Positions 4,883 through 9,759 of a stretch of DNA of 12,475 bases are shown here, one piece after another. Within the stretch, counting starts at the first letter, position 1; the number at the start of each line of letters is the position of its first letter. Source of the stretch: Thermococci archaeon (GTDB lineage: Archaea > Hadarchaeota > B88-G9). Location of the stretch: contig QMUK01000030.1 of assembly GCA_003660555.1 (NCBI GenBank), forward strand, positions 1-12,475. The letters are read 5' to 3'. Made by a program: the position numbers and the translations under genes. The notes beneath the pieces were generated by a model, which saw nothing but the letters and a program-made list of their open reading frames with translations, was not told the DNA's origin and searched no databases.

Positions 4883-4924
4883 TAAAACCCCTCCTGACCC
4901 ACATTTCCTCTAGTCTGGCTAAGA

Positions 4925-4952
4925 GTTATATATTCGACATATATACTTTATC
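4925..4952. promoter_or_regulatory. Paired TATA-like boxes of the divergent ino1 / radical SAM intergenic region
   Basis: The 169-base gap 4883-5051 separates the divergent ino1 and radical SAM genes. It contains two AT-rich boxes, 4926-4933 (TTATATAT) and 4938-4948 (CATATATACTT), both readable as TATA on either strand. On the minus strand GGATAAAGTATATAT (4952-4938) looks like a purine-rich BRE plus TATA. A start about 25 bases on would leave a leader of roughly 35 bases carrying the GGAGGGG site of ino1. The same boxes could serve the plus strand with a leader of about 80 bases. No RNA gene was recognised in this gap. Assignment is by motif only. Confidence 0.5.
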
Positions 4953-5003
4953 CCCAGTCCGAAGTGCTCGAACCGTCTCTGAAAATCCCTCAGTCGCATT
5001 AAA

Positions 5004-5063
5004 GGAAGTTAAACTGGCATTCAGGAGAGATCAAAGAGCGGGGGAGTTAAATTGGAATTAGGG
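5004..5063 (+). repeat. Imperfect 22-base direct repeat overlapping the radical SAM gene start
   Basis: Bases 5004-5025 and 5042-5063 match at 17 of 22 positions with a 38-base offset; the core is AGTTAAAYTGGMATT. The second copy covers part of the GGGGAG ribosome site and the TTG start of the radical SAM gene. The first copy lies in the leader and has CTG where the second has TTG. It could be a pair of regulatory sites or a chance or old local duplication. Confidence 0.4.
5041..5046 (+). promoter_or_regulatory. Ribosome binding site fixing the TTG start at 5052
   Basis: GGGGAG lies five bases before the TTG at 5052. No ATG or GTG in frame nearby has a better site, so TTG is taken as the start of the radical SAM gene. 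Confidence 0.55.
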
Positions 5064-6227
5064 GGTAGTGTTAGATACTTAGTAGCCAGAACCTTGTCTA
5101 AGCTACTTGATATGGCTATAGACCCAGAAGATACAGGAAACTTGGAGAGATACCTAGAAGCTCTGGGAAATAGTGCCTCAAAATGGAAATTTCCTGTTCT
5201 TATCAAGAAAAAAATGCTGTGGCTTATTCTCAGGATAATTGACGAGAAAATAGATATCGAAGATAGGATACAATTGAGGAAAGGTGCCTTTATTGTTAAA
5301 AGTCTATCGAAAGGAGGCAAGTGGAGGCCATATCTCGGAATAGTCGGGTTGAGTGGGGAGTGTAACTTCAATTGTAATTATCCGTTTCCCGAGGGAGACG
5401 TTAACGCTTTCAGAGTGATAGAGATCCTAGATAGGATAGGAGTGTCATCCATCTCTTTCTGCTGCGGTGAACCTCTAGCTAGGAGGGAAATATCTGAATT
5501 AGTGAGACTCTGCTCCGAGAAAGGAATAAAGACTAATGTTCACACGAACGGGAAAAGACTCAATACTAAGCTGGCAGAAGAGTTGAGAGATGCTGGGCTG
5601 AACGAAATTGAAATATCCCTAAATAGTCACAGGTCTTCAGTGCACGACGCAATCTCTAAAGTCCCTGGCTCATATGATCGGGCCCTAAGAGCAATAAAGA
5701 CGTCCAAGGAAGTTGGTCTTACTGTTAAGGTCTCCTTAACAATCACTTCGCTAAATATTGGGGAACTCATGGAGACTATTGAATTCGTTGAGGGACTTGG
5801 AGTTGATGGAGTGAACCTCTACAGTTATATACCAAGAAACGAAAGGGACGAGCTCTTCGTCCCAGAAATAGGGAGAATATCTTCTTCTGGAAATCCTTGG
5901 AGCCACAAGCTGGATAAAATAGACCTTCCTTGGTGCAGAGGGTGTCCTGCTCTAGAACAGATGATATACGTTTCCCCAACTGGGGAGGTTTCCCCGTGTC
6001 CGTTCTTACCAACTGAGCTAGGATTCGAGGAGCTGTCCAATTTAGACTGGGCAGAACTAAGAAAGAAGTTTTCTTATATAGAAGAGAACTCATGTAAATT
6101 TTGTGAGAGCTTTTCTTCCTGTGGAGGGTGTAGGGCTAGAGCCCTTTCCCTCAGAGGTGACGAGGCAGAGATAGATCCAATATGTCCGAGGGGTGTAGAG
6201 CTTGTTCAGAAGGCCAAAGGGGACTAG
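5052..6227 (+). CDS. Radical SAM/SPASM-like protein with a degenerate cluster motif
   Basis: Radical SAM superfamily protein of unknown substrate, 391 residues. Residues 1-95 form a largely helical, charged N-terminal extension. The radical SAM core runs from about 96 to 285. The cluster motif reads GECNFNCNYPFPEGD at 102-116: Cys104 and Cys108 are present but the third ligand position (111) is Pro (codon CCG). The GGEP motif reads CCGEP (137-141), so its first Gly is Cys138. Later core strands are recognisable (TNVHTNGKRL 161-170, EIEISLNS 185-192). The C-terminal part (292-382) has a SPASM/twitch-like Cys array: 295, 298, 316, 348, 351, 357, 360 and 378, which would hold auxiliary iron-sulfur clusters. 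The reading frame is intact and encodes a well-ordered protein, so it is not an obvious pseudogene. Its last 26 bases overlap the start of hisS, implying cotranscription. The family is clear; the reaction is unknown, and normal SAM cleavage is in doubt. Confidence 0.85.
   Translation: MELGGSVRYLVARTLSKLLDMAIDPEDTGNLERYLEALGNSASKWKFPVLIKKKMLWLILRIIDEKIDIEDRIQLRKGAFIVKSLSKGGKWRPYLGIVGLSGECNFNCNYPFPEGDVNAFRVIEILDRIGVSSISFCCGEPLARREISELVRLCSEKGIKTNVHTNGKRLNTKLAEELRDAGLNEIEISLNSHRSSVHDAISKVPGSYDRALRAIKTSKEVGLTVKVSLTITSLNIGELMETIEFVEGLGVDGVNLYSYIPRNERDELFVPEIGRISSSGNPWSHKLDKIDLPWCRGCPALEQMIYVSPTGEVSPCPFLPTELGFEELSNLDWAELRKKFSYIEENSCKFCESFSSCGGCRARALSLRGDEAEIDPICPRGVELVQKAKGD
6188..6195 (+). promoter_or_regulatory. 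Ribosome binding site for hisS inside the radical SAM gene
   Basis: GAGGGGTG lies six bases before the TTG at 6202, within the 3' coding part of the radical SAM gene. It supports the TTG start of hisS and the 26-base gene overlap. Confidence 0.55.
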
Positions 6228-7431
6228 AGACTTTCTTCCAGAGGACATGAAGTTTAGGAGACACATAGAGAAAATCATCCGGAAAGTATTCGAATCTTAT
6301 TCCTATGAGGAAATACTAACCCCAACCTTCGAATATTTTGATTTAATAGCTGAGAAGTCTGGGGAAGAAATAAGGAGAAGTGTTTATGTCTTTGAAGACA
6401 AGGGGGGTAGGACCCTAGCTCTTAGGCCAGAAATGACTGCTCCGATAGCTAGGGTAATAGCAAACGAGCTGAGATCCAGACCAAAACCTCTGAGATTGTA
6501 TTACATAACAAATGTGTTTAGATACGAGGAGCCCCAGAGAGGTAGATGGAGAGAATTCTGGCATGCCGGGGTCGAGCTAGTAGGTAGTTCCAGAGTAGAG
6601 TCTGATGTAGAAGTAATTTCCCTTGGATGCGAGGTTTTAGAGACATTGGGATTTAAGTACTACGTCAAATTGGGTGATGTCAGTGAGATCAGGAATGTTC
6701 TATCCGAAATTGGTGTAACAGATGAGAGAGAGCAGAACCTCATTCTATCTATGATAGATAGGGGAGGAGACTATTCTTCATATTTGGAAAGCAAAGGATT
6801 TGATCCAAGAGCGCTGAACGAACTGTTCTCTACTAGAGAGGTAAATACCGAAAAAATCAGACAGGTATTGAACCTAATAGAGGACAAGTTCTCTGACAGA
6901 GTAATAGTAGATCTCAAGCTATCTAGGGGGTTGGACTACTATACTGGACTGGTCTTTGAGTTCTATGTCGAAGGACTAGATGTGGCCGTTGGCGGTGGTG
7001 GAAGATACGACAAATTAATAGAGACTTTCGGAGGACCAAGACTACCAGCTGTGGGTCTTGCATTTGGATTGGACAGAATAGAATTGGCTGCTAAAGAACG
7101 CAATCTAATCTCGGAGTCAGAAGTCATGAAAGCTATTGTAATACCTCTATCGGAGAAATGTGTCAAAAAAAGTTTTGAGATATCTTCTGCTCTAAGAGAG
7201 CTTGGAATAATCACAGAACTTGAAGTCATGGGGAGAAAACTGAACAAATCTCTCTCGTATGCGTCTGAAAAAGGTATTAGATTCGCACTAATACTAGGTG
7301 AAAAAGAGCTAGAATCAAATACCATAACTGTCAAGGACTTAAAAAAAGGAGAACAAGAAGAAATTGAGTTGGGAAAGCTCAAAAAATATTTTAAATCGAT
7401 TACTCGAGATACCGTTTGTACTTCTCTATGA
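6202..7431 (+). CDS. hisS: Histidyl-tRNA synthetase
   Basis: Class II aminoacyl-tRNA synthetase charging tRNA-His. It has 409 residues, about the usual length. The TTG start gives the canonical N-terminus RRPKGTRDFLPEDM (3-16); the next ATG (6247) would remove it. Motif 1 ends near TPTFEYFDL (40-48), then LRPEMTAPIARVIA (74-87). Motif 2 is YITNVFRYEEPQRGRWREFW (101-120) with HAGVELVGS after it. The histidine-specific motif is LSRGLDYYTGLVFEF (240-254), and motif 3 is GLAFGLDRIEL (285-295) after AVGGGGRYDKL. The anticodon-binding domain fills about 308-398. The start overlaps the radical SAM gene by 26 bases. The last 32 bases, coding the tail after about residue 398, overlap the 3' end of the ribbon-helix-helix gene on the other strand, so the final ten residues may be family-atypical. 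Identity is secure. Confidence 0.97.
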   Translation: MFRRPKGTRDFLPEDMKFRRHIEKIIRKVFESYSYEEILTPTFEYFDLIAEKSGEEIRRSVYVFEDKGGRTLALRPEMTAPIARVIANELRSRPKPLRLYYITNVFRYEEPQRGRWREFWHAGVELVGSSRVESDVEVISLGCEVLETLGFKYYVKLGDVSEIRNVLSEIGVTDEREQNLILSMIDRGGDYSSYLESKGFDPRALNELFSTREVNTEKIRQVLNLIEDKFSDRVIVDLKLSRGLDYYTGLVFEFYVEGLDVAVGGGGRYDKLIETFGGPRLPAVGLAFGLDRIELAAKERNLISESEVMKAIVIPLSEKCVKKSFEISSALRELGIITELEVMGRKLNKSLSYASEKGIRFALILGEKELESNTITVKDLKKGEQEEIELGKLKKYFKSITRDTVCTSL

Positions 7432-7926: not shown

Positions 7927-9120
7927 TCAAAAGGTCTTTATCTTGCCTTTGACTATCATTTCAGTGAGTTTCCAAATTTCATTCAGGTTGTCTTTAACTA
8001 TTTCTTCAGATTCCCTGAGGATTCTTTTTCTGTTTTCTATGTCGTAATCTAATATTTGCACACTTGCATTCTCTGGCTGATTTATCGGGCTCCCTATTCT
8101 GCTCTGAAGTCTGACATATACTTCTAGCGCTCCAGTCTCACTGTGAATCTCTTCAGCGATCTTGTGAGCCATGACATTGTAGAGCTTTCCGATGTGGCTT
8201 ACGGGATTTTTACCACAGGCTGCTTCAAGTGACATGGGTCTGAATGGTGTTATCAAACCATTTACTCTGTTGCCCCTACCTGTGGATCCGTCATCTCCTG
8301 CTTCAGCAGAGGTGCCAGTCACAGTTATGTAAACTACTCTCTCTTCTTCATCGGCTGCATTAATAACTACTTCTAACTCTTTGTCGCTTCCAAGTATTTT
8401 CTTCGCCTTTGAGATTGCTATCTCTCTTACTTTCTCCTTAGCATCATAATACTCCTCATAACTGCTCAATTGAGAAGACACCATGGCAGAAGCTATTGTC
8501 AGAGAGTACTTGTCTCCGTTCCTAGTTCCCATTACCTTTATGTCCTCTCCCAGTGATGGCACTCTCCTCTTGCTACTGTCTGAATTCAACTCCATCTCCA
8601 CTTCCAGTACTGTCTTCTCCAATGGTGTCATTGGAGCAAAACCTACGCCAAAAGACGTATCGTTTGCTCTTGGCACATCTCCTCCCAATTTGAATAACTC
8701 TCTTAGATCTATTGATCCAGGTCTTATCATAGGAGATATCTCAACGTGTTCCTTCGGGTTCAGGAACCTAACTGTATCGTCCAGATATTTCACTGCGACT
8801 TCGTATGCTATTTCATTCACAGGTATTTCTTTTCCGTTGTATTCAGTAGTTGCTCTCCCGGCTAATAAAACATATATTGGTTTAGTGACTTTTCCCCCTC
8901 CTATCTCGGGTTCGGCTTCTCCTCCAACTATTTGGACGTGATCGGTATTGTGATGTAGTATTTCACCGAACTCTTCCATATACCTGAGAGACAGTGTCCT
9001 GCTTATCTCCTCTGCTATCCCATCTGCTAGACTGTCTGGATGACCTATACCCTTTCTCTCAACTATCTCTACTTTCTGAGAAGTTACTGGATCTCTGTTA
9101 AGAAACTCAACGGTTATCAT
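7927..9120 (-). CDS. mat: S-adenosylmethionine synthetase, archaeal type
   Basis: Makes S-adenosylmethionine from methionine and ATP in the cytoplasm. It has 397 residues from the chosen ATG, typical of archaeal MAT, which is very divergent from bacterial MetK. Visible motifs are [20 protein letters not shown] (20-39, substrate-binding), [20 protein letters not shown] (56-75), [15 protein letters not shown] (157-171), [20 protein letters not shown] (266-285, the Asp/Gly-rich phosphate loop), and [20 protein letters not shown] (303-322). A GTG at 9138 is in frame, but the codons between it and the ATG are themselves the GGGGGAGGGAG ribosome site, so the ATG at 9120 is the start. It is divergent from the HTH-CBS gene, with 84 bases between the starts. 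The next gene on its strand, the ribbon-helix-helix gene, begins 173 bases further on and probably has its own promoter. Confidence 0.96.
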
Positions 9121-9131
9121 CTCCCTCCCCC
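9121..9131 (-). promoter_or_regulatory. Strong ribosome binding site deciding the mat start
   Basis: The minus strand reads GGGGGAGGGAG directly before the ATG at 9120. It lies inside the extended reading frame that opens at GTG 9138, arguing against that longer start. Confidence 0.7.
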
Positions 9132-9148
9132 GCCACACTTCCTAAGAA

Positions 9149-9160
9149 ATAAATTTATAC
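9149..9160. promoter_or_regulatory. TATA-like element of the mat / HTH-CBS divergent promoter
   Basis: On the minus strand AAAAAGTATAAATTTA is a good BRE plus TATA for mat, giving a start near 9130 and a very short leader. On the plus strand AAATTTATAC can also act as TATA for the HTH-CBS gene, and GTATAAG at 9174-9180 is another candidate. The two genes share only 84 bases, so a factor binding here could affect both. Confidence 0.5.
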
Positions 9161-9192
9161 TTTTTCCGGTAATGTATAAGCGAGATTTATAT

Positions 9193-9198
9193 GGAGGG
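9193..9198 (+). promoter_or_regulatory. Ribosome binding site deciding the HTH-CBS start
   Basis: GGAGGG lies six bases before the TTG at 9205. The ATG at 9172 in the same frame lacks such a site and would place the GGAGGG inside coding sequence. Confidence 0.6.
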
Positions 9199-9204
9199 TC
9201 GGAG

Positions 9205-9759
9205 TTGCGGGTGCCAGGACCTGAGGAGATAAAAGAACTGAGGAAAAGACTTGGGATTACTCAGAAGGAGTTAGCTGAACTAGCTGGAGTGAGTCAATCT
9301 CTCATATCTCAAATAGAGAAGGGAAAAGTTGATCCTAGAGTGTCTACCATTAGGAAGATAATAAATGCTTTAGAAAAGGTGAGCGAACCGAGAATTACAG
9401 CTTCTGACATAATGACGTTTCCAGCAATATGTATAGAAGCTAGGAAGAGTGTCAAAGTCGCCATGGAACTAATGCTTGGTTCTGGATTTTCTCAATTACC
9501 AGTTATAGATTTTGGCAGAGTAATAGGAAGCATTTCGGAGGAGACTGTGCTTAAATTACTCAGTGAGGACAGAGGCGGATTAGAAAAAAAGGTAGAAGAG
9601 GTAATGGACCCTCCATTTCCCATAGTAGGACATAATGCGGATTTAGATTTGGTCTTAGAACTCTTAAGGAAGAATCATGCCGTTCTAGTAAGCACTAGGA
9701 ACGACTTCGGTATAATAACTAGGGCTGACGTAATAAGATTTTTCAGTAAAGTAGAGTGA
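9205..9759 (+). CDS. HTH (Xre/Cro-type) transcriptional regulator with two CBS domains
   Basis: Predicted DNA-binding regulator that senses a nucleotide-type ligand. It has 184 residues from the TTG, giving the N-terminus MRVPGPEEIKELRKRLGITQ, which suits archaeal members of this type. Residues 8-58 are a Cro/C1-type helix-turn-helix (ITQKELAELAGVSQSLISQI at 18-37). Residues 66-122 are CBS 1 (ITASDIMTFPAICIEAR, FSQLPVIDFGRVIGSIS) and 131-182 CBS 2 (VEEVMDPPFPIVGHNADLDL, VSTRNDFGIITRADVIRFF). CBS pairs commonly bind AMP, ATP or SAM. The gene is divergent from the SAM synthetase gene, so control of that gene, its own, or both is plausible. It converges with the M42 peptidase gene with an 11-base gap. 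Earlier in-frame starts reach into the SAM synthetase gene and are unlikely. Confidence 0.9.
   Translation: MRVPGPEEIKELRKRLGITQKELAELAGVSQSLISQIEKGKVDPRVSTIRKIINALEKVSEPRITASDIMTFPAICIEARKSVKVAMELMLGSGFSQLPVIDFGRVIGSISEETVLKLLSEDRGGLEKKVEEVMDPPFPIVGHNADLDLVLELLRKNHAVLVSTRNDFGIITRADVIRFFSKVE

Follow-up and report, generated by a model that had tools for sequence, protein, structure and literature searches.

A degenerate archaeal radical SAM/SPASM protein with an altered SAM site and a retained SPASM cysteine array

The annotation of radical SAM proteins as radical enzymes rests on homology, and the locus described here raises the question of what such a protein does when the third cysteine of its cluster motif is missing. 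The gene lies in a window of 12,475 nucleotides (contig QMUK01000030.1, 12.5 kb) from a metagenome-assembled genome of approximately 1.3 Mb in 150 contigs; all positions given below are those of this window. It runs on the plus strand from 5052 to 6227 and, on the basis of the open reading frame list and Pfam, was read as encoding a degenerate radical SAM/SPASM protein of 391 amino acids from a TTG codon at 5052, 5 nt upstream of which is the sequence GGGGGAG (alternative starts are TTG at 5094 and ATG at 5112). The Pfam Radical_SAM model (PF04055) matched residues 120-246 with 63 bits, against a cut-off of 29.5. The gene sits between an inositol-1-phosphate synthase gene on the reverse strand and hisS on the plus strand (6202-7431, from the open reading frame list), the names of the neighbours being our reading of the translations. 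Its end overlaps hisS by 26 nt, so the two genes are likely to share one transcript; in a synteny check of 11 genomes of the phylum, a radical SAM gene beside hisS was found in none. Elsewhere in the window, an open reading frame at 9040-9759, divergent from metK, reads in translation as a helix-turn-helix and CBS-domain regulator.

The former cluster motif (5361-5384, plus strand) was delimited from its codons and by comparison with homologues. It reads C104-NFN-C108-NY-P111, with TGT for C104 (5361-5363), TGT for C108 (5373-5375) and CCG for P111 (5382-5384), and lacks the third cysteine. Alignment with homologues placed CCGEP (5460-5474, plus strand) at the position of SGGEP, Cys137 and Cys138 being encoded by TGC TGC (5460-5465). 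Two features expected of a functional radical SAM enzyme, a three-cysteine CxxxCxxC and GGE(P), are thus absent. The initial annotation had read both motifs in this way, and both readings were confirmed at codon level and in a second contig, NJEE01000060.1; the proline codon, which it had placed at least two changes from any cysteine codon, differs from TGT and TGC at all three bases. No TGT or TGC occurs between the C108 codon and position 5443 in any plus-strand frame, so a frameshift cannot restore the third cysteine. A further replacement was found by alignment at residues 198-203 (5643-5660, plus strand), where HDAISK stands for HDxFRG and the conserved Phe, Arg and Gly are lost; of 53 homologues, 52 carry Arg at position 202.

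The distance from C104 to G139 (the second glycine of GGEP) is 36 residues, compared with 44-47 in 53 homologues, a shortening by 8-11 residues which indicates that the third cysteine was lost together with about 9-10 loop residues; segment lengths and alignment place the shortened loop at 5385-5402 (plus strand). To judge from the sequence, P111 may be a changed cysteine or may have come from a more distal part of the loop. The absence of the third cysteine noted earlier holds, but the change is more accurately a shortening of the loop in which that cysteine was included; cysteine-to-proline substitution alone was rejected as an account, since it would need a separate loop deletion as well. 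By segment lengths, the bridge from the radical SAM barrel to SPASM (5835-5933, plus strand) is also contracted, residues 260-298 spanning 39 residues compared with 61-96 in homologues (22-57 shorter). Segments 139-201, 201-260, 298-316 and 348-378 have the family length exactly or nearly, and the loop and bridge contractions are all in frame.

Homologues were taken from 394 related genomes, together with paralogues from elsewhere in the source genome (contigs C84 and C37); loci were drawn for the best-scoring genomes only, so the set is a sample of best matches. The first set was chosen by a pattern demanding an intact motif, and the comparison was repeated without that filter on 56 other homologues. 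CxxxCxxC was kept in all 56 and was lacking only in the window protein and its counterpart on NJEE01000060.1, while none of the homologues examined combined the loop deletion with CCGEP and a complete SPASM. No close orthologue was found in 28 genomes of the phylum or in the 394 related genomes, the best relatives being approximately 30% identical, and a scan of genome contigs for orthologues matched only the near-identical NJEE01000060.1. In the openly accessible literature, no description was found of a pseudo-radical-SAM protein or radical SAM pseudoenzyme of this kind. Among the homologues, L003 and L040 represent a group of archaeal radical SAM proteins of approximately 404-414 amino acids with CKCNCEHC, EGDP for GGEP and no CGGC part of SPASM; L058, a 639 amino acid open reading frame of the source genome (G000, contig C37), has an intact CNFRCIHC with IVGEP for GGEP. 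An IMG/VR contig (L071, 960-3056), which is probably cellular DNA in a viral collection, carries a gene for an AhbD-like radical SAM/SPASM protein with a fusion of approximately 340 residues at its N terminus.

NJEE01000060.1 (L056 in our set; Candidatus Bathyarchaeota archaeon ex4484_205) is 99.7-99.9% identical to the window over the shared parts. There are 8 SNPs and two indels between the two, none of them at motif residues, and P111 and C137/C138 are the same in both; these residues are therefore not a base-calling slip, in keeping with the earlier view that a sequencing error was unlikely. The two contigs were both assembled from metagenomes, and the samples may be related, but an artefact of assembly or sequencing in the cluster motif is extremely improbable, as contigs with this many differences between them agree exactly at the motif, no frame holds a cysteine codon at the site and further conserved positions are altered too. 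It had been suggested that the copy might be a lone variant among normal orthologues, or that close relatives might share Pro111 and Cys138. The lone-variant reading was half borne out: the homologues are normal and have neither residue, but their identity is no more than about 30%, and the change recurs in the one near-identical relative.

The same comparison bears on whether the gene is in decay, its open frame being residual and its product of no use. It is specific to one lineage and has a long branch (3.56 compared with a median of 0.15 in the tree, where its placement had no support), and both SNPs within it change amino acids (K156R and A389T). In addition, 174 bp of the window (4909-5082) are missing from NJEE01000060.1 at 5007/5008, between the inositol-phosphate synthase and radical SAM genes; this stretch takes in what are probably the start codon and ribosome-binding site of the latter, and its absence may be a real deletion or an assembly error. 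The contig also lacks 15 bp (window 6548-6562) within conserved motif 2 of hisS (region RGRWREFWHAGVE), a gap that would damage an essential enzyme and that suggests errors in the public contig itself. Against decay, 391 codons are open despite several in-frame deletions, SPASM keeps 17 of its 19 conserved positions and every cysteine, and the case from substitutions is judged on two SNPs only. The open frame had been cited at the outset as an argument against decay; the frame is indeed open, but the argument is weakened by the missing start region in NJEE01000060.1. Decay is on balance improbable, though less so than an artefact.

Conservation was uneven between the two domains of the protein. 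Among positions with at least 95% conservation across the homologues, 15 of 32 were lost from the radical SAM domain and two of 19 from SPASM (kept positions 17/32 compared with 17/19, Fisher p = 0.013). The lost radical SAM positions include W98, T101, H110, C111, G138, A164, D191, F201, R202 and G203, while C104, N105, C108, GEP, TN, S189, H198 and T230 are kept. The eight C-terminal cysteines reported previously were confirmed as C295, C298, C316, C348, C351, C357, C360 and C378 (5934-6185, plus strand; placed by conserved columns and AhbD spacing). The seven-cysteine SPASM array (CX9-15GX4C, CX2CX5CX2-3C, C) is present as C298-x12-G311-x4-C316, C348-x2-C351-x5-C357-x2-C360 and C378, so that all seven canonical cysteines are kept; the Pfam SPASM model scored 15 bits, below its cut-off of 21.5. 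C295 is new, with no counterpart within 7 residues in homologues, and may be the fourth ligand of AuxI.

A structure was predicted with AlphaFold2 from a shallow alignment of 12 sequences. In the model the barrel (about residues 120-250) mostly has pLDDT 77-97, the cluster loop (105-114) is below 50, as is most of the SPASM part, and residues 1-93 (5052-5330, plus strand) form an N-terminal helical extension of four helices at pLDDT 37-47. The barrel fold is thus predicted to be retained. Residues 90-260 matched SkfB, BlsE, viperin, SuiB, PqqE and MoaA with Z scores of 17.6-20, reaching 20 for SkfB and BlsE, and by fold and descent the protein belongs to the radical SAM superfamily (PF04055 score, six strands and these Z scores). 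SkfB, SuiB and MoaA have an intact CxxxCxxC, as do BlsE and PqqE, in contrast to the window protein. BlsE was the best solved match by sequence. In BlsE, alanine at any of the three cysteines or at either glycine of GGEP abolishes activity (PMC3715490), while PqqE C32S loses SAM cleavage and has an emptied RS site with both auxiliary clusters remaining (PMC5715301); AhbD without the RS cysteines likewise retains its auxiliary clusters (PMC10452713). The window protein carries lesions of both the BlsE and PqqE mutant types, as well as the loop deletion.

These results bear on whether the protein could still be an active radical SAM enzyme, with C137 or C138 as third ligand and SAM bound and cleaved. 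C104, N105, C108, GEP, TN, S189 and T230 are retained and the barrel fold is predicted, but the loop is gone, the positions of R202, D191 and W98 are changed, and cysteine in place of the first glycine, where alanine kills BlsE (PMC3715490), should clash with the methionine group of SAM. The working site-differentiated cluster put forward in the initial annotation is consequently unlikely, as G138C places a side chain in the SAM methionine pocket, and an active enzyme is very improbable. G138C alone is no proof of inactivity, since the first glycine is also replaced in homologues L003 and L040 (Glu) and in the paralogue L058 (Val), in all three of which CxxxCxxC is intact, and BioB is functional with AAW at the GGE position (PMC3715490).

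We favour a pseudo-radical-SAM/SPASM protein, in which the SAM site has been lost, the two SPASM sites have been kept and another job has been taken on (probability roughly two in three). Such a protein would descend from the archaeal AhbD/NirJ/Gms-like radical SAM group; removal of the loop with the third cysteine, together with the Gly-to-Cys change in GGEP, would leave no SAM-binding [4Fe-4S] cluster, while a partial TIM barrel, as predicted, and two auxiliary Fe-S sites of SPASM would be retained. SAM would not be cleaved, the auxiliary clusters would be occupied and the protein would have a new cellular role, for which electron transfer, the carrying of clusters or service as a partner protein through the remaining SPASM clusters may be proposed. 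This corresponds to the last of the options offered initially, in which SAM cleavage is lost and the SPASM array kept, and it fits best because SPASM is near-complete, the residues of the SAM site are widely lost and the BlsE and PqqE mutants are inactive.

Simple loss does not explain everything: C104, N105, C108, GEP, TN, S189 and H198 are kept though a mere loss of SAM binding would not call for them, and the retention of C104 and C108 alongside the gain of C137 and C138 is left unexplained. Position 138 is Gly in all 53 motif-intact GGEP homologues and position 137 is Ser or Thr. Cysteine is rare in the neighbouring proteins, at only 0.5%, and we estimate the chance of two cysteines at named adjacent positions at approximately 3e-5 to 1.4e-4 (before allowing for the choice of position). 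Given this rarity, an adjacent pair at the GGE position is unlikely to have arisen by drift, and the gain looks like rebuilding rather than loss. A CCG (HdrB-type) cluster domain, with the motif CX31-39CCX35-36CX2C, was considered and rejected: C104-x32-CC fits its first half, but there is no CX2C at +35, the next cysteines being 154 and 295.

The main alternative is a rebuilt, closed four-cysteine site of C104, C108, C137 and C138, holding [4Fe-4S] or Zn, that is unable to bind SAM and has a role in electron transfer or structure; as regards SAM cleavage it is a special case of the pseudo-radical-SAM/SPASM protein. Both remaining RS cysteines are kept, the two gained lie across the site from them, on its other wall, and 12 of the 13 cysteines fall in the two metal regions. 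With C295 in AuxI, there would be three four-cysteine sites. Adjacent cysteines are, however, uncommon as ligands of one cubane, the model has pLDDT below 50 in loop 105-114, and the C137/C138 pairing occurs in one lineage only, so that no covariation can be drawn upon. With such low confidence in this loop, the model speaks neither for nor against Cys137/138 as substitute ligands, another option of the initial annotation. GGE in normal enzymes contacts the amino group of SAM, which ligates the unique iron (PMC3715490), and the side chain at 138 should by this reasoning point toward the unique-iron side. We regard the rebuilt site as possible but unlikely, and its use to turn the radical SAM barrel into a three-cluster electron-transfer protein as slightly more doubtful again.

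A pseudo-radical-SAM/SPASM protein of the proposed kind is a warning against assuming radical chemistry from a Pfam match. With the SAM site dismantled and both auxiliary cluster sites kept, it would also be a natural experiment on the function of SPASM clusters by themselves. Were the four-cysteine rebuild true, it would show how deletion of a loop and the gain of two cysteines can convert a site-differentiated catalytic cluster into a closed one.

Degenerate radical SAM/SPASM proteins have already been named as such (TIGR04347, 'pseudo-SAM/SPASM'). Among NCBIfam models, AhbD scored best, followed by GeoRSP, NirJ and TIGR04347, all far below cut-off. TIGR04347 (pseudo_SAM_Halo) resembles the window protein, judging by its NCBIfam name, as a SPASM family with a degenerate radical SAM core; it differs in score (89.2 bits, or 80.7 in the genome search, against a cut-off of 525) and, being haloarchaeal by name, in lineage. 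In the searched genomes the model picked up only AhbC-like relatives with an intact motif, TIGR04347 members proper not being among these genomes.

The nearest archaeal homologues have for the most part 459-530 amino acids, with approximately 120 residues ahead of the cluster motif. They recall the GMGT synthase Gms (PMC11186832), and the window protein has in common with these Gms-like proteins an N-terminal extension of approximately 100 residues, a radical SAM barrel, a bridge and SPASM with CGGCRARA. The closest (such as L031, L033 and L057, the last being the intact paralogue on contig C84; 459-490 amino acids) have their RS cysteines near 123/127, as in Gms, and L006 (C121/C125) has the spacing of Gms from C370/C372 to C438, its C361 and C429 being 68 residues apart like C370 and C438 of Gms (PMC11186832). 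Similarity of the N-terminal domain to that of these homologues was not significant, the true match ranking sixth in a set of 1000 of which 999 were shuffles. Gms homologues have been defined by more than 420 amino acids, more than 30% identity and E <1e-50 to Gms (PMC11186832), and an intact RS motif is expected of them; the window protein may or may not belong with them, its 391 amino acids and broken RS motif being out of line with this description. It is approximately 30% identical to the Gms-like proteins, from which it also differs in the absent third RS cysteine and loop, the replacement of SGGEP by CCGEP and the shorter bridge.

The AhbD equivalog model (TIGR04545) gave 118.7 bits against a cut-off of 500, which places the window protein outside that family. 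The likeness lies in SPASM: the auxiliary ligands of M. barkeri AhbD are C256, C274, C312, C315, C321, C324 and C342 for AuxI and AuxII, and the spacings C298-C316, C348-351-357-360 and C360-C378 of the window protein are identical to theirs (PMC10452713). The window protein differs from AhbD in its broken RS motif and in having no counterpart of the AuxI ligand C223 at the corresponding distance, for which C295 is a possible substitute.
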